Shown in pieces: positions 1,894 to 10,362 of a DNA stretch of 64,000 nucleotides. Origin of the DNA: Terriglobales bacterium (lineage in GTDB: Bacteria; Acidobacteriota; Terriglobia; Terriglobales; Acidobacteriaceae); contig DATKKJ010000186.1 in assembly GCA_035543055.1 (NCBI GenBank), forward strand, positions 1-64,000, read 5' to 3'. Below the pieces are notes generated by a model, which did not search any database, was not told the DNA's origin, and was given only the letters and a program-made list of their open reading frames with translations. Made by a program: the position numbers and the translations under genes. Each line of letters opens with the position of its first letter. Position 1 is the first letter of the stretch.

Positions 1894-1966
1894 GGTCCGG
1901 AACGGTTAAGCGGAGCATATCTCGCAAAAGGCGCGAGGGCAATTGTGGATTTCCAGTGCTTAGGAG

Positions 1967-2665
1967 TTACTCGGCAGCCCGCATCATCTCGGGAATGGTG
2001 ACAAAGCGGTAGCCGTCGGCCTGGTAGCGGCGGAGCAGGCGGGTGGTGGCTTCGACGGTGGGGGCGCGGTCCGCGCCCATCTTCAGGTGGGAGCCGTCGT
2101 GCAGCAGGATGATGTCGCCGCCGCGGATGCCGCGGACGGCATGGCGCTCGATGGGATCGGCGGAGCGGGCGTTCCAGTCGAAGCAGGTGACGGTCCACAT
2201 CACCGGGGTCATGCCGCGAGCGCGGACGGCGGCGAAGGTGCCGGGGCGGCGTCCGCCGAAGGGAGGGCGGAAGAGGCCATCGTGGGGGCCGGCGGCGTCG
2301 GCGATGGCCTTGTCGGTGTCGTCCAGCTCGCGGCCCAGGCGCGCGGCCGAGGCGAAGGTCAGCAGGGGATGATTGTAGGTGTGGTTGCCGATGGCGTGAC
2401 CCTCCTGGCGGATGCGTCGGACGATATCGGGGCGCTGGACGACGTAGCGTCCGATGAGGAAGAAGGTCGCCTTGGCACCGTGCTGGGCGAGGATATCGAG
2501 CAGGGCGGGGGTGTGCGCCTCGTTGGGGCCGTCGTCGTAGGTGAGGGCGAGGAGCTTGGAGCCGGACACGCCGAGGAAGCTGCGGCCGTAGAGCTGCGAC
2601 CTTGGGCCCATGGTGGCATAGCCCGCATAGGCGACGGCGGCGGCTCCGGCGATGAGTCCGAACAT
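1967..2665 (-). CDS. Membrane-anchored polysaccharide deacetylase (NodB domain)
   Basis: The protein has 232 residues. An N-terminal hydrophobic segment (about residues 3-18) probably anchors a periplasmic catalytic domain. All NodB motifs are present: LTYDDGPNEA with the base and metal Asp pair at 44-45, GNHTYNH with the two metal His at 95 and 99, RPPFGGR at 133-139, MWTVTCFDWN, and IILLHDG near the C-terminus. Such enzymes remove N-acetyl groups from peptidoglycan or other N-acetylhexosamine polymers; the substrate is not evident. There is no clear Shine-Dalgarno before ATG 2665. A strong terminator of the upstream amidohydrolase pair lies just 5' of it, so it must have its own promoter. 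Confidence 0.88.
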   Translation of the reverse strand: MFGLIAGAAAVAYAGYATMGPRSQLYGRSFLGVSGSKLLALTYDDGPNEAHTPALLDILAQHGAKATFFLIGRYVVQRPDIVRRIRQEGHAIGNHTYNHPLLTFASAARLGRELDDTDKAIADAAGPHDGLFRPPFGGRRPGTFAAVRARGMTPVMWTVTCFDWNARSADPIERHAVRGIRGGDIILLHDGSHLKMGADRAPTVEATTRLLRRYQADGYRFVTIPEMMRAAE

Positions 2666-2689
2666 TTGGCCATCATTGTAGCCGCTGGG

Positions 2690-2717
2690 AAAAAAAGGCG
2701 CGGCTGAAGCCGCGCCC
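2690..2717 (-). terminator. Rho-independent terminator after the amidohydrolase pair
   Basis: On the minus strand the stem GGCGCGGC / GCCGCGCC with loop TTCA is followed immediately by seven T. It lies about 25 bases after the stop of the downstream amidohydrolase gene and upstream of the deacetylase gene. Confidence 0.9.
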
Positions 2718-2741
2718 GTGAGAGCAAGTTGCGCAGGCCGC

Positions 2742-4094
2742 TCACTTCATGTACTGGTCGCGCAGGCGGGTCTGGCGGGTCTCCATGGAGACGGCCCGGC
2801 CCTGGATGTAGACCTGCTTGACGTCGGTCTTGGGATCGAGCGGGTCGCCGGTGGCCACCACGACGTTGGCGGTCTTGCCCACGTCGAGGGAGCCGAGCTG
2901 GTCGCCGAGGCCCCAGATCTCGGCCGCGTTGAGCGTGATGGCCTTTAACGCTTCGTCGTAGGGCAATCCGAAGGCGACGGCGTAGCCGGCGGCATAGGGC
3001 AGGTTACGGGACTGGTGGGCGTCATAGGAGGCGAAGGCCAGCTTTACCCCGCGTTTCTGCAGCTCGGCGGGCATGCGGTAGACCGAGTCGTAGCGCTCGC
3101 CTTCTTTAGGGCGGGCATAAATGGGGCCGATGATGACCGGCAGCTTGCTGGCGGCGATCATGTCGAGCAGCTTGTTGGCGTGCTCGACATGGTTGAGGAT
3201 GACGCGCAGGTTGAATTCCTTGGCCAGCTCGAGCGCGGTCTCGATGTCGCCGGGCTCCTCGGCGGCAAGAACGATGGGCTTCTTGCCGTCGAGGTACGGA
3301 ACCAGCGCTTCCAGCTTGAGGTCACGCTTGGGCGGGGTCGGGGGACCCTTCTTCTCGTCTTTCTTGTCGTCCTTATTCTTCTCCTCCTTCTGCGGCTCGG
3401 CCTTCTTCTTCTCGTAATCGGCCCACTTCTGCTGGTAGTCGCGGGCGTCGATGAAGGCCTGGCGAAGTTGGGCAGCCACGCCCATGCGGGTGAAGGGGAA
3501 CTTGGCCTTCTCCCAGGAGTCGTTGCGGCGCTGCTCGCCGGTGAAGTTCAGAGGCAGGGCGATGTCGCGCACCAGCAGCATGTCCTTCGCCGACTGGCCC
3601 TCGAGCTGGATAAATGACGACTGGCCGGGAAGGGTGTCGGTCTCGCCGGCGGCGACGATGGCGTTGGTGATGCCGTTCACCCGGGTGACGGGGATCAACT
3701 GCGATTCCGCGTGGAAGGCCTCCCAGACATGGAGGTGGGGAAAGATCTCGTCGCTGGGCTCGATGTAGTCGTTGGTCATCTGCTCGGCGGAGATCTCGGT
3801 CAGGCCGAGGCGGCTCTCGGAGTCAATCAGGCCGGGATAGACGGTCATGCCGCGCACATCCACGATCTGCGCACCTTTGGGCACGGCCACCGAGCCGGCA
3901 GCGCCGACCGCGGTGATCTTGCCGTTCTCCATGACGACCGCGCCGTTCTCGATCACGCCGTGGGAGACGGTGAGGATCCTGCCGCCACGAAGGACGATGG
4001 CGCCGGGCGCCGCGGCGGGTTTAGCGGACTTCTGGCCGGCCGCCGAGCCGGTTGCCACCATGAGCGCAAGAGCGAGTCCGAGTGCGCGCTTCAT
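2742..4094 (-). CDS. Secreted amidohydrolase-like protein with degenerate metal site
   Basis: The protein has 450 residues and a signal peptide (1-20). It has the imidazolonepropionase-like layout: an N-terminal beta sandwich (IVLRGGRILTVSHGVIENG), a TIM barrel, and the C-terminal return LGSLDVGKTANVVVATGDP. The usual DxHxH metal motif is replaced by DSESR (residues 91-95), and the matching second site reads AAEEPGD instead of a His-containing strand; only LNHVEHA and SYDAH keep candidate ligands. A Lys/Glu/Asp-rich insertion (near 230-260) precedes PPKRDLKLEAL, a string shared with the adjacent paralogue. It overlaps that gene by four bases (ATGA), so the two are translated together. It is probably a non-metal or altered partner subunit rather than an ordinary hydrolase. 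Confidence 0.85.
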   Translation of the reverse strand: MKRALGLALALMVATGSAAGQKSAKPAAAPGAIVLRGGRILTVSHGVIENGAVVMENGKITAVGAAGSVAVPKGAQIVDVRGMTVYPGLIDSESRLGLTEISAEQMTNDYIEPSDEIFPHLHVWEAFHAESQLIPVTRVNGITNAIVAAGETDTLPGQSSFIQLEGQSAKDMLLVRDIALPLNFTGEQRRNDSWEKAKFPFTRMGVAAQLRQAFIDARDYQQKWADYEKKKAEPQKEEKNKDDKKDEKKGPPTPPKRDLKLEALVPYLDGKKPIVLAAEEPGDIETALELAKEFNLRVILNHVEHANKLLDMIAASKLPVIIGPIYARPKEGERYDSVYRMPAELQKRGVKLAFASYDAHQSRNLPYAAGYAVAFGLPYDEALKAITLNAAEIWGLGDQLGSLDVGKTANVVVATGDPLDPKTDVKQVYIQGRAVSMETRQTRLRDQYMK

Positions 4095-5392
4095 TGGCCC
4101 TCCTTGTAGTACGGCGTGCCCAGGCCGGGCAGGCTGCGGTCGAAGAAGACGTCGCCGTCGATCAGCACCATGTCCACCAGGGCGTAGATGGAAAGCGGGT
4201 GGGCGTTCCAGATGGTGATGTCGGCGTCCTTGCCCACGTCGAGCGAGCCGACACGGTCCTGCACGCCCACGTTCCAGGCGGCGTTGAGGGTGACCATCTT
4301 CAGGGCCTCGTCTTCAGTGGCGCCGCCGTAGCGGATGGTCTTGGCGGCTTCCTGGTTGAGGCGGCGGGCGAAGTCGTCGGAGTCGCTCTTGATGGCGACG
4401 TTGACCCCGTGGCGCATGGCGATGACGGCGTTCCAGGGGATGGCGTCCCAGGCCTCTTCCTTGTAGCCCCACCAATCGGCGAAGGTGGAGATGCCGATGC
4501 CGGCGGCGGCGATCTGGTCGGCGACCTTGTACGCCTCCAGCGCATGCTCGAAGCTGCGCAGGGTGTAGCCGAACTCCTTGGCCATGGCGATCTCGGTGAG
4601 GAACTCGTCGGCGCGGTAACAATGATTGTGGACGAACATCTTGCCGCGCATCAGGTCGGCGAGAGCTTCCAGCTTCAGGTCGCGCTTGGGGGGCTTGGCG
4701 TCCTTGTCTCCGCCTTTGACCTTGGCGTCGTACTGCTCCCACTCGCGCATGTAGTCCTGGGCCTCAGCCAGCGCCTGGCGCTGGACAGCGAAGTTGCCCA
4801 TGCGGGTGGAGGGGAGCTGCTGGCGGCTGCCGTAGACCCGCTTCGGGTTCTCGCCGCTGGCGAACTTGATGGATCGCGGGGCGCTGGGGAAGAGCAACTG
4901 GTCGCGTCCGAGGCCGTACTTGTGCTTGATGACGATGCTCTGGCCGCCGACCATGTTGGCGGAGCCGTGCAGCAGCAGCGAAGTGGTGACGCCCCCGGCC
5001 AGGGTGTAATAGATGTTGCGGTCGGTGTAGTCGAAGGCGTCGAGCATCATCATGTGCGGGGTGACGGGGCTGGTGGCCTCGTTGATGTCGTCGCGCAGAG
5101 CGATGTGGGAGTGGGCGTCGATAATGCCGGGCATGACAAACTTGCCGGTGGCATCGATGACCTTCGCCGACGGCGGTGCGGTGACATTGGCGCCGACCGC
5201 GGCGATCTTGCCGTCCTTGATGTACACGGAACCGTTCTTGATGGTGCCGTGAGTGACGGTGAGGATGGTGCCGTTCCTGATCAGCACCTCGTTGTGCCCG
5301 ACGGACGGAGCCTGGGACTGGGCGGACGCCATGCCGCCGGCGAGCAGCGCCGTCACTGCGAGACATGCCCAGGCGCGTATGACTTGACGCAT
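4091..5392 (-). CDS. Secreted amidohydrolase family protein (metal site intact)
   Basis: The protein has 433 residues from ATG 5392, which sits five bases after AAGGAGG; an upstream in-frame extension lacks a signal peptide and was rejected. The signal peptide (1-24) is followed by the beta sandwich, IIDAHSHI with the metal-binding HSH at 94-96, MFVHNHCYRADE, SFEHALE, and SDSDDFARR, a full set of amidohydrolase ligands. The C-terminus VGSLDVGKDADITIW is typical of the imidazolonepropionase-related group, which includes secreted dipeptidases and lactamases; the substrate is unknown. It overlaps the paralogous downstream gene by four bases, suggesting a two-subunit enzyme. The terminator at 2690 closes the operon. 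Confidence 0.9.
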   Translation of the reverse strand: MRQVIRAWACLAVTALLAGGMASAQSQAPSVGHNEVLIRNGTILTVTHGTIKNGSVYIKDGKIAAVGANVTAPPSAKVIDATGKFVMPGIIDAHSHIALRDDINEATSPVTPHMMMLDAFDYTDRNIYYTLAGGVTTSLLLHGSANMVGGQSIVIKHKYGLGRDQLLFPSAPRSIKFASGENPKRVYGSRQQLPSTRMGNFAVQRQALAEAQDYMREWEQYDAKVKGGDKDAKPPKRDLKLEALADLMRGKMFVHNHCYRADEFLTEIAMAKEFGYTLRSFEHALEAYKVADQIAAAGIGISTFADWWGYKEEAWDAIPWNAVIAMRHGVNVAIKSDSDDFARRLNQEAAKTIRYGGATEDEALKMVTLNAAWNVGVQDRVGSLDVGKDADITIWNAHPLSIYALVDMVLIDGDVFFDRSLPGLGTPYYKEGQ

Positions 5393-5444
5393 CGTTCCTC
5401 CTTGGAAAAAAGAAGGGAGATTGTAAAGGGTCGCGGGACGACGG

Positions 5445-5489
5445 GACAGCCGGAAATATAGGCCGGCGAAGCAAGGAAAGCCGGCTGTC
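5445..5489. promoter_or_regulatory. 9-bp inverted repeat in divergent intergenic region
   Basis: GACAGCCGG (5445-5453) and CCGGCTGTC (5481-5489) are exact inverted copies 27 bases apart, between the divergent amidohydrolase and dtd genes. The space between holds an A/T-rich patch (AAATATAGG). It could be an operator or a cruciform; no clear -35/-10 pair was found for either gene. Confidence 0.35.
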
Positions 5490-5534
5490 ACACGTGTCCG
5501 TGTAAACTGACGTCCGACCCAAGAAAAAGTCACT

Positions 5535-5984
5535 ATGCGAGCCGTGGTGCAGCGCGTCAGCCGGTGCAAGGTGAGCGTCGGCGGAGAAGCCGTGGGCGAG
5601 ATCGGCAGGGGCCTGCTGGTGCTGTTGGGAGTCGGGCAGGGCGACAGCGAGGCCGCCGCCGACTACCTCGCCGACAAGACCGCCGGGCTGCGCATCTTCG
5701 AGGACGCGGAAGGGAAGATGAACCTGGACGTCGCACAAGCCGGCGGAGCAGTGCTGGTGGTCTCGCAGTTCACGCTGCACGGCGACGTGCGGCGGGGGAA
5801 GCGTCCGTCGTTCGACCGCGCGGCGCGGCCGGAAGAAGCGCGCCGGCTGTACGAATACTTCGTCGGTAGGATCCGGGCAGCCGGGTTGCGCTGCGAGGCC
5901 GGCAGATTCCAGGAGATGATGGACGTCGAACTGGTGAACGCGGGGCCGGTGACCATCCTGCTGGATTCGGAGAAAACGTTCTGA
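5535..5984 (+). CDS. dtd: D-aminoacyl-tRNA deacylase
   Basis: The protein has 149 residues, the usual Dtd length. It hydrolyses D-amino acids (and glycine mischarged on tRNA-Ala) from tRNA in the cytoplasm. The start [15 protein letters not shown], the SQFTLHGD motif with the conserved Ser/Gln/Thr (residues 77-80) and NAGPVT with the cis Gly-Pro loop (135-140) are the hallmark chiral-proofreading elements. Its last base is shared with the next gene's start (TGATG), so a small membrane protein is probably translated from the same transcript. Confidence 0.96.
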
Positions 5985-6259
5985 TGCTCGAGCCCCAGGA
6001 CGTTCTCGATCCGCAGCAATCGTGGTGGGGATGGCTGGTCGCGGGCGGAGCGATCGCCGCCGTGGTCCTGGCGCTCTGGCTGATCAACCGGCTCCTGCCA
6101 GAGAAGATGCGCAAGGGCTACACGGCGGGCGCGGGGAACGCGCTGATGCGGGCGGAGACGTTCTTCCGGCCCTCGCGCGAGCATGTGATCGAGGCAAAGC
6201 AGCAGGAGCGGAAGGAAGAAGACGACGAAGGCGGGCGGGAGAAAACAGGGAAGGTATAG
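5984..6259 (+). CDS. Small single-pass membrane protein
   Basis: The protein has 91 residues. A short acidic/polar N-terminus ([17 protein letters not shown]) is followed by one transmembrane segment (about 18-36, LVAGGAIAAVVLALWLINRL) and a basic, then Lys/Glu-rich cytoplasmic tail ending in KQQERKEEDDEGGREKTGKV. No family is recognised. The gene starts on the last base of dtd (overlap TGATG), and the reading frame ends just before a dispersed repeat that also forms the end of folP on the other strand. Confidence 0.75.
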   Translation: MLEPQDVLDPQQSWWGWLVAGGAIAAVVLALWLINRLLPEKMRKGYTAGAGNALMRAETFFRPSREHVIEAKQQERKEEDDEGGREKTGKV

Positions 6260-6263
6260 GGGT

Positions 6264-6338
6264 TCTTCGACTGGCGCCGCGATGCGCCCAAACTTGGGGC
6301 GCAAAAGAAACATCGCGGCGCTTCGCTCAGGATGACAA
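6264..6338. repeat. Dispersed hairpin repeat (CTTCGACTG...CTTCGCTCAGGATGACA) overlapping folP stop
   Basis: Between two convergent genes, CTTCGACTG and CTTCGCTCAGGATGACA flank an exact 11-bp inverted repeat, GCGCCGCGATG (6274-6284) and CATCGCGGCGC (6311-6321). A second stem, TGCGCCC/GGGCGCA, is nested inside. The minus-strand reading TGTCATCCTGAGCG gives folP its last codons and its TGA. The core 13-mer CTTCGCTCAGGAT recurs, inverted, at 58738-58750 behind gyrB. A looser relative is at 10405-10435. Confidence 0.7.
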
Positions 6339-7235
6339 TCGGGCAGCAGCCAGGACGGCGTCTGCGATCTTTGCTGCTTCCACCGCCGGCTTGACGTCGT
6401 GCACGCGGACGATGTGCGCGCCCTTCAAGATGCAGGCCACGGTCGAGGCCAGAGAACCATGGAGACGCGCATCCGGCGGGGCGTCGTGGCCGTTGCGCGC
6501 CAGGGTGCGGCCGATGAAGGACTTGCGCGAAGTCCCGGCGAGCAGCGGAAAGCCGAGGCGGTGAAGCTGCTCGAAATGAGCGAGCAGCGGGTAGTTCTCC
6601 TCGAAACTCTTGCCGAAGCCGAAACCGGGGTCGAGGACGATGCGATCGCGGGCGACACCGGCGTCCATCGCAGCCTGGCTCCATTGCCGCAATTCCCGAG
6701 CGACTAAACCGACGGCATCGGTGAGGGGCGGCAGCGCGCGCCATTCCTGCGGCCGCCCGCGCATGTGCATGAGGATGACGCCGCATGCGAGTTCGGCGAC
6801 CGCGGCGGGCATCTGCGGGTCCCAACGGAGAGCGCTGATGTCGTTGACGATCTCGGCGCCGGCGGCGACCGCGCGGCGCGCCACCTCGGCCTTGTAAGTA
6901 TCGATCGAGAGCAGGGCGTCGGGGCGCCGGCTGTGGATGCCCTCGAGCACCGGCATGACGCGGCGCAGCTCTTCTTCGACGGGGACGCCGGTGTATTGCT
7001 CGGCGGCGGTCTCGATGGCCCTCGAGCCCGGGCGGGTGGACTCGCCGCCGAGGTCGAGGATGTCGGCGCCGTCGTCGAGCATCGAAAGCGCGTGCTCGAC
7101 CGCCGGTCCGCACTCGAAGAAGCGCGCTCCGTCGGAGAACGAATCGGGCGTCACGTTCAGAACGCCCATCACCAGAGTACGGTGGCCCAACTGCAGCGAG
7201 CGGGTGCGCAGCTTCCAGGTGAACGAGGGACGCAT
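6327..7235 (-). CDS. folP: Dihydropteroate synthase
   Basis: The protein has 302 residues from ATG 7235. FolP condenses p-aminobenzoate with 6-hydroxymethyl-dihydropterin pyrophosphate in folate synthesis and is the sulfonamide target. Visible motifs are VMGVLNVTPDSFSDG (about 22-36), DLGGESTRPGS (61-71), SIDTYKAEVA, VNDIS, ILMHMRGRP, DPGFGFGKS and AGTSRKSFIGR. An open frame continues upstream of 7235 on low-complexity sequence antisense to fmdB and was not used. The last four codons and the TGA stop lie inside a dispersed repeat, so the native C-terminus may have been altered; it still ends soon after the last barrel helix. Confidence 0.95.
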   Translation of the reverse strand: MRPSFTWKLRTRSLQLGHRTLVMGVLNVTPDSFSDGARFFECGPAVEHALSMLDDGADILDLGGESTRPGSRAIETAAEQYTGVPVEEELRRVMPVLEGIHSRRPDALLSIDTYKAEVARRAVAAGAEIVNDISALRWDPQMPAAVAELACGVILMHMRGRPQEWRALPPLTDAVGLVARELRQWSQAAMDAGVARDRIVLDPGFGFGKSFEENYPLLAHFEQLHRLGFPLLAGTSRKSFIGRTLARNGHDAPPDARLHGSLASTVACILKGAHIVRVHDVKPAVEAAKIADAVLAAARLSS

Positions 7236-7310
7236 CGCGGACAAGGTATCAGATAGAATCTGTCCTTTCCCACCCAAGCCAGAGTCGGGCTTTCTGTGGG
7301 TACCCAGGCG

Positions 7311-7604
7311 ATGCCCCTCTACGAATTCCAGTGTCCGAAGTGCGGGTACCGATTCGAGCGGATCCAGAAGTTCTCCGATCCCGATCCGAAGAGGTGTCCG
7401 GAGTGCGGCGCAAGGAAGGTCGAGCGCCTGCTGCACGCCCCGGCGGTGCAGTTCAAGGGTTCCGGCTGGTACGCGACTGACTACGCGCGCCGGGGTCCCG
7501 CTGCCCACGGCGAGAGCAAGAGCGAGGCCAAAGCGGAGGAAAAGACCGAGGCCAAGCCCAAGCCCGAATCCAAGCCGGAACACAAAAAGGACAAGAAGAG
7601 ATAG
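7311..7604 (+). CDS. FmdB-family zinc ribbon protein
   Basis: The protein has 97 residues from ATG 7311. An earlier GTG at 7296 is possible, but family members begin MPLYEFQC. The N-terminal zinc ribbon has CPKC and CPEC (residues about 8-11 and 28-31), the regulatory FmdB/SSF domain of unknown partner. The ribbon is followed by VQFKGSGWYATDYARRG, the usual second conserved stretch, and a Lys/Glu/Pro repetitive tail. It is divergent from folP across a 75-base gap and convergent with clpB, with a hairpin between. Confidence 0.88.
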   Translation: MPLYEFQCPKCGYRFERIQKFSDPDPKRCPECGARKVERLLHAPAVQFKGSGWYATDYARRGPAAHGESKSEAKAEEKTEAKPKPESKPEHKKDKKR

Positions 7605-7627
7605 GCCCAAGGGGCCGGCCGTGGCAC

Positions 7628-7649
7628 GCCCCCGCCCAAAGGCGGGGGC
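7628..7649. terminator. Hairpin terminator between convergent fmdB-like gene and clpB
   Basis: GCCCCCGCC and GGCGGGGGC form a perfect 9-bp stem with the four-base loop CAAA. There is no T run on either side, so it may be a weak bidirectional terminator or a dispersed GC-rich hairpin. Confidence 0.55.
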
Positions 7650-7656
7650 TCCACAG

Positions 7657-10362
<2,706 letters not shown>

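Follow-up and report, generated by a model that had tools for sequence, protein, structure and literature searches.

A secreted-looking amidohydrolase and its metal-site-less paralogue form a conserved gene pair and a candidate hetero-oligomer

Why would a bacterium keep, directly beside the gene of an intact amidohydrolase, a second gene of the same kind whose metal site is gone? The question is raised by two genes in the window, by which we mean the whole stretch of 64,000 nucleotides analyzed here, from a Terriglobales bacterium. We refer to the intact gene as B and to its neighbor as C (Table 1). The two proteins are paralogues: they share 32% identity over 429 columns (BLASTP, E 9e-59), both contain PKRDLKLEAL, and the same solved structure, 3ooq, is the top match for B (E 5.8e-74) and for C (E 3.7e-44). 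B scores above the Pfam cut-offs for PF07969 (60.2 bits, cut-off 29.7) and PF01979 (54.8 bits, cut-off 25), and C also exceeds the cut-offs for both families. The N-termini of B (MRQVIRAWACLAVTALLAGGMASAQ) and C (MKRALGLALALMVATGSAAGQ) were each judged by eye to be Sec signal peptides. A sequence-only reading of this DNA had proposed that the two genes are paralogues whose frames overlap by ATGA. The BLASTP match, the common motif and the shared best structure bear out the kinship, and the coordinates of the two minus-strand frames confirm the overlap.

Table 1. Features of the B-C gene pair and positions in the window
Feature	Position	Strand	Basis
Gene B, secreted-looking amidohydrolase, 433 aa	4091..5392	-	ORF; intact, all six metal ligands
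Gene C, pseudo-amidohydrolase, 450 aa	2742..4094	-	ORF; predicted fold kept, metal site lost
ATGA overlap, C start codon over B stop TGA	4091..4094	-	ORF coordinates
B DAHSH, HxH metal ligands H94 and H96	5105..5119	-	Ligand alignment
B K176 in IKFASGENPK, candidate carboxylated lysine	4865..4867	-	Lys conservation in B rows
B H257, beta-5 ligand	4622..4624	-	Ligand alignment
B H283, beta-6 ligand	4544..4546	-	Ligand alignment
B D337, beta-8 ligand	4382..4384	-	Ligand alignment
C DSESR, replaces B DAHSH	3810..3824	-	Alignment; E93 for H94, R95 for H96
C AAEEPGD, replaces B HNHCYRADE	3246..3266	-	Alignment; E279 for H257
C NHVEH; H302 is the sole retained ligand position (B H283), H305 a family-specific conserved His	3180..3194	-	
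C ASYDAH; Y357 replaces B D337, H360 kept in the family	3015..3032	-	

Judging from its sequence, B is probably a secreted amidohydrolase with a binuclear metal site. Its ligand set in the window is complete (H94, H96, K176, H257, H283 and D337). We take K176 to have the carboxylated-lysine role familiar from the superfamily, and the stretch IKFASGEN resembles the Lys-ligand strand of the Xaa-Pro dipeptidase / imidazolonepropionase-like amidohydrolases. The C protein of the window has lost five of the six ligands: no Lys stands at the place of K176, and of the five His and Asp ligands only H302 is kept. At the beta-5 position, AAEEPGD aligns with the second His of the B motif HNH, a residue that is invariant in B (218 of 218 rows). 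The alignment thus agrees with the earlier proposals that B keeps HSH and its other ligands and that DSESR and AAEEPGD occupy ligand places in C. Conservation of the DSESR form among relatives did not hold up. Of 54 family C proteins, 44 have Glu in place of the first His, and the motif ends in varying residues; at the beta-8 position, Y357 occurs in 34 of the 50 core family C proteins.

The same pattern extends over the full alignments. We mapped the ligand positions through the aligned sequence rows and scored the five His and Asp ligands. All five are present in each of the 217 complete B rows (218 rows, of which one, L198, is truncated). No C row keeps more than three: 119 of the 209 rows keep none, 61 keep one, 26 keep two and 3 keep three. 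Lys is found at the K176 place in 218 of 218 B rows and in 0 of 209 C rows. The C proteins with three of the five ligands still present are those of loci L054, L058 and L062 (for instance, GLIESHTHLG in L054). By their sequences these are intermediates of ligand loss, so in this lineage at least the site disappeared in steps.

With five of six metal ligands lost, C could be a decaying duplicate of B. The family survey argues against this. We searched 150 genomes from the window's family with a match threshold of E <= 1e-20 for both proteins. B and C were found in the same 57 genomes, 93 genomes had neither, and none had B alone, so that C was never lost without B. Because the same genomes carry both genes or neither, the pair has been gained and lost together; because it is missing in 93 of 150 genomes, it is dispensable. 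The pair is patchily lost as a unit, as in G265, a genome of the window's own genus that is 100% complete and lacks both genes. Loci were fetched from 54 of the 57 carriers; in the other three (G282, G295 and G305) the B and C matches lie on fragments or are split over contigs. C adjoins B in all 54 fetched loci, and in 52 of them the C start lies between -30 and +60 bases from the B stop. The nearest C start is at a 4-base overlap (-4) in 19 of the 54 loci and at a 1-base overlap (-1) in 23. A C that was absent or degraded where B persists is what the sequence-only reading had associated with decay. The idea of a pair survived this comparison, and the gene order was found to be conserved across related genomes.

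Selection and predicted structure point the same way. Over 154 close and non-independent pairs, dN/dS has a median of 0.085 in B and of 0.126 in C (C maximum 0.388); C is under purifying selection, with a constraint somewhat weaker than that on B. The fold of C is retained by prediction. An AlphaFold model built with 81 sequences reached a pLDDT of 91.6 and a pTM of 0.89, and it superposes on 3ooq with Z 50.5 and rmsd 1.9 over 378 residues (VIA-align), the next entry having Z 26. With a cut-off of E <= 0.001, every one of the 81 aligned C sequences hits both PF01979 and PF07969. Decay is also difficult to reconcile with a gene that persists in at least nine phyla while its ligand set is incomplete in 209 of 209 rows, and we consider it barely credible as an explanation of C. 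One part of the C model has low confidence, namely a Lys/Glu-rich, low-complexity insert that follows a long helix (residues about 226-255, window 3330-3420); B is much shorter at that place.

Beyond the family, a phylum sample of 199 genomes contained 94 B places at E <= 1.1e-98, and all 93 outside the window were fetched. From a scan of named-species genomes, the best 80 of 592 confirmed relatives were added as loci. Four duplicates were removed, which left 219 B loci that represent at least nine phyla. The named-species loci (best 80 of 592) belong to Acidobacteriota, Gemmatimonadota, Bacteroidota (with Ignavibacteria and Balneola), Planctomycetota and Armatimonadota, and further to Myxococcota, Pseudomonadota (Idiomarina, Steroidobacteraceae), Zixiibacteriota and Krumholzibacteriia. 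C lies beside B in 211 of the 219 loci. Five of the eight B loci without an adjacent C stop at a contig edge, 0-392 bases past B. For the remaining three (L226, L233 and L277), C turned up on another contig when the whole genome was searched; these proteins share 41-48% identity with an Ignavibacteria C, have the C HMM as their best-scoring model and keep none or one of the five His and Asp ligands. C is therefore adjacent or elsewhere in the genome for 214 of 219 B loci, the other five being at contig edges. This sample, drawn by B, tests whether B needs C; the occurrence of C without B was covered in the window's family only.

A third paralogue, which we call A, stands before B (or after C) in 134 of the 219 loci, and its metal site is degraded as well. 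Among 130 A rows, 99 keep none of the five His and Asp ligands, 23 keep one, 8 keep two and none keeps more, and Lys occurs at the K176 place in 4 of 130. The median dN/dS of A is 0.165 (59 pairs). All of the 23 A sequences compared with PF01979 hit it at E <= 0.001. A is nearly missing from the window's family, where it was found at one locus (L189). A profile built from 23 A proteins gave strong matches in the window's genome to C (E 6e-89) and B (E 1e-51) only; the next match (E 1.6e-13) covers a fragment, and A was therefore called absent from this genome. When 23 genomes without A beside B were searched with the A profile, a clear A was found only in G025, on another contig. Two departures from the A-B-C layout were seen. 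Locus L047 of genome G006 (about 1939-9567) has six such domains in tandem, of the classes B-B-B-C-B=C (= marks a fusion), as if the module had been amplified. In a permuted lineage (L213, L219, L220 and four phylum-sample loci), a B=C fusion is followed by A.

The genes are also naturally fused. Among the 219 loci we found single-frame fusions of A=B (38 loci), B=C (25 loci) and A=B=C (3 loci: L066, L237 and L239); the loci surveyed in the window's family had none. Some direct B=C fusions have linkers of only 15-17 residues. Fusion on both sides of the live domain would classically point to a unit that is physical or tightly coupled; fused domains can also act independently. A model of the B=C protein that occurs naturally in L054 (866 aa; 51 sequences) had a pLDDT of 90 and a pTM of 0.90. 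In a model of two equal barrels, such a pTM implies that the relative placement of the domains is predicted with confidence; the predictor may be reproducing a homodimer geometry that it learnt from superfamily members. Among the 50 best matches listed for the fusion, no solved chain spans both domains (best TMq 0.43). A hetero-oligomer is the best inference from the natural B=C and A=B fusions together with this model, and we think it likely that B and C together form a hetero-oligomeric amidohydrolase in which C is the obligate, non-catalytic subunit. The sequence-only reading had already suggested a hetero-oligomer; its further idea that the second subunit binds substrate or the surface gained no support here. 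In L281, L282 and L283 (two Fimbriimonadales/Armatimonadetes genomes and one Ignavibacteria genome), C is present and unlinked from an A=B fusion.

C has conserved residues of its own, which fall into two sets. E112, R138, P329 and R363 are at least 94% conserved over all C rows, across phyla, and three of them (E112, R138 and R363) show no variation among the 50 core family rows. Residues of this kind could belong to an interface or contribute to the B site. The second set is common in the 50 core family rows (E93 in 44, H302 in 43, H305 in 39 and H360 in 42; all four together in 29) and is not kept by the C proteins of other phyla; it would suit a family-specific ligand pocket. The latter residues, newly conserved in the family and located at the ends of barrel strands, are what one would expect if C were a separate secreted binding protein for the substrate of B, its product or a cell-wall component, co-expressed with B without needing to touch it. 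The three genomes in which C lies apart from B would also agree with a free binding protein. However, the direct B=C fusions with their short linkers and the confident fusion model both favor contact, and the four residues are specific to the family. We regard such a binding protein as unlikely.

The same residues bear on the idea that C has remained an enzyme by acquiring a different active site, for example a metal site made of E93, H302, H305 and H360. Their frequency in family C proteins and the conservation of E112, R138 and R363 across phyla would be consistent with catalysis. Nevertheless, little more than half of the core family proteins carry all four residues, and outside the family the His and Asp ligand positions drift freely. 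A catalytic C therefore seems to us distinctly improbable, more so than a binding protein, and a non-catalytic subunit of B is the reading that we retain.

We also considered co-variation between B and C as evidence of contact. The summed mutual information of the top 50 pairs was 12.9, compared with 10.7 +/- 0.5 for partner-swapped alignments (n=20), which also break recent ancestry. Reciprocity was 0.549 for the top 50 and 0.534 for the top 200 pairs, inside the spread of five swaps or slightly beyond its upper end. Because the swaps break recent ancestry and reciprocity was not clearly above the controls, this line of evidence was dropped. In a tree of 88 rows, B forms one clade, A forms one clade and C is a grade between them (two changes needed); the tree has no outgroup, so one inactivation and several are not separable in it. 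The surroundings of the genes were similarly uninformative. We clustered 948 flanking ORFs of the 219 loci and found no conserved extra operon partner: no neighbor occurs in more than 23 loci. The largest cluster (23 loci) has 21 members in the window's family, the largest cluster without family members comprises 13 loci on mixed sides and strands, and some clusters are shadow frames. With no commonly kept neighbor, the flanks give no hint of a pathway or substrate.

The Thermotoga maritima protein 3ooq is the closest solved relative of B and C, both by sequence and by fold. Like B, it has the HxH, Lys, His, His and Asp ligands; unlike the B-C pair, it is one gene product with a complete-looking metal site, and it does not have the B segment DWWGYKxE. 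We found no paper naming 3OOQ in the open-licence PMC literature. Xaa-Pro dipeptidase / imidazolonepropionase-like amidohydrolases (3feq, 3mtw, 2qs8 and 2g3f) have the superfamily fold in common with C (Z about 25-26) and are far more distant from it than 3ooq. To our knowledge, no dead paralogue partner has been described for these enzymes.

Active enzymes that need a dead paralogue are known elsewhere. As described in PMC5201418, the S-adenosylmethionine decarboxylase (AdoMetDC) of Trypanosoma requires its inactive paralogue, the prozyme, as heteromer partner. Deoxyhypusine synthase and its dead paralogue are reported to be the same type of pair (compare PMC6221367 and PMC3663545 on pairs of the prozyme type). 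The trypanosome pairs are eukaryotic, differ from B-C in fold and reaction and have one dead partner; activation was measured there, whereas B-C is known from sequence and models. Within the amidohydrolase superfamily, an inactive dihydroorotase occurs in the Pseudomonas aspartate transcarbamoylase and a pseudo-DHOase in fungal CAD-like proteins; each is a dead superfamily protein kept as a structural subunit or linker (PMC4581275), a role similar to the one proposed for C. The live partner there is a transcarbamoylase, whereas the constant neighbor of C is B, its own live paralogue. In the B-C system, the live partner is the paralogue itself, and there are often two dead partners. In the open-licence PMC literature, our search met with no account of amidohydrolases of the B-C kind, whether tandem, paired or dead.

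These observations suggest the following scheme. Duplication of one enzyme would have given rise to C, which would have lost the metal site and kept the TIM-barrel fold. C would then take the place of the second protomer in a pseudo-homodimer with B, and C (together with A where present) may stabilize, position or activate B, by analogy with prozymes. Translational coupling, or fusion in other lineages, would hold B and C in equal amounts. The predicted role of B would be to hydrolyze an amide or peptide outside the cytoplasm by means of its binuclear metal site. More tentatively, and with somewhat less confidence than doubt, we suggest that A-B-C could be a single conserved extracytoplasmic complex of one live and two dead subunits, present in at least nine phyla and reduced to B-C in the window's lineage, in which residues of the dead barrels would complete or gate the live site. 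If so, two thirds of the genes of such loci, labeled amidohydrolase by Pfam, would be non-enzymes.

Pfam-level annotation labels the dead subunits as enzymes, as the PF01979 matches of all 81 C rows and all 23 A rows illustrate. The series A-B-C, A=B-C, A-B=C and A=B=C is a natural experiment in which the route from dead paralogue to subunit could be followed. For the family itself, our reading would replace the vague label of a widespread "amidohydrolase family protein" by a heteromeric enzyme that can be tested. One prediction is that B may lack activity or stability when it is expressed alone, which would be a plausible reason why its reaction is uncharacterized.
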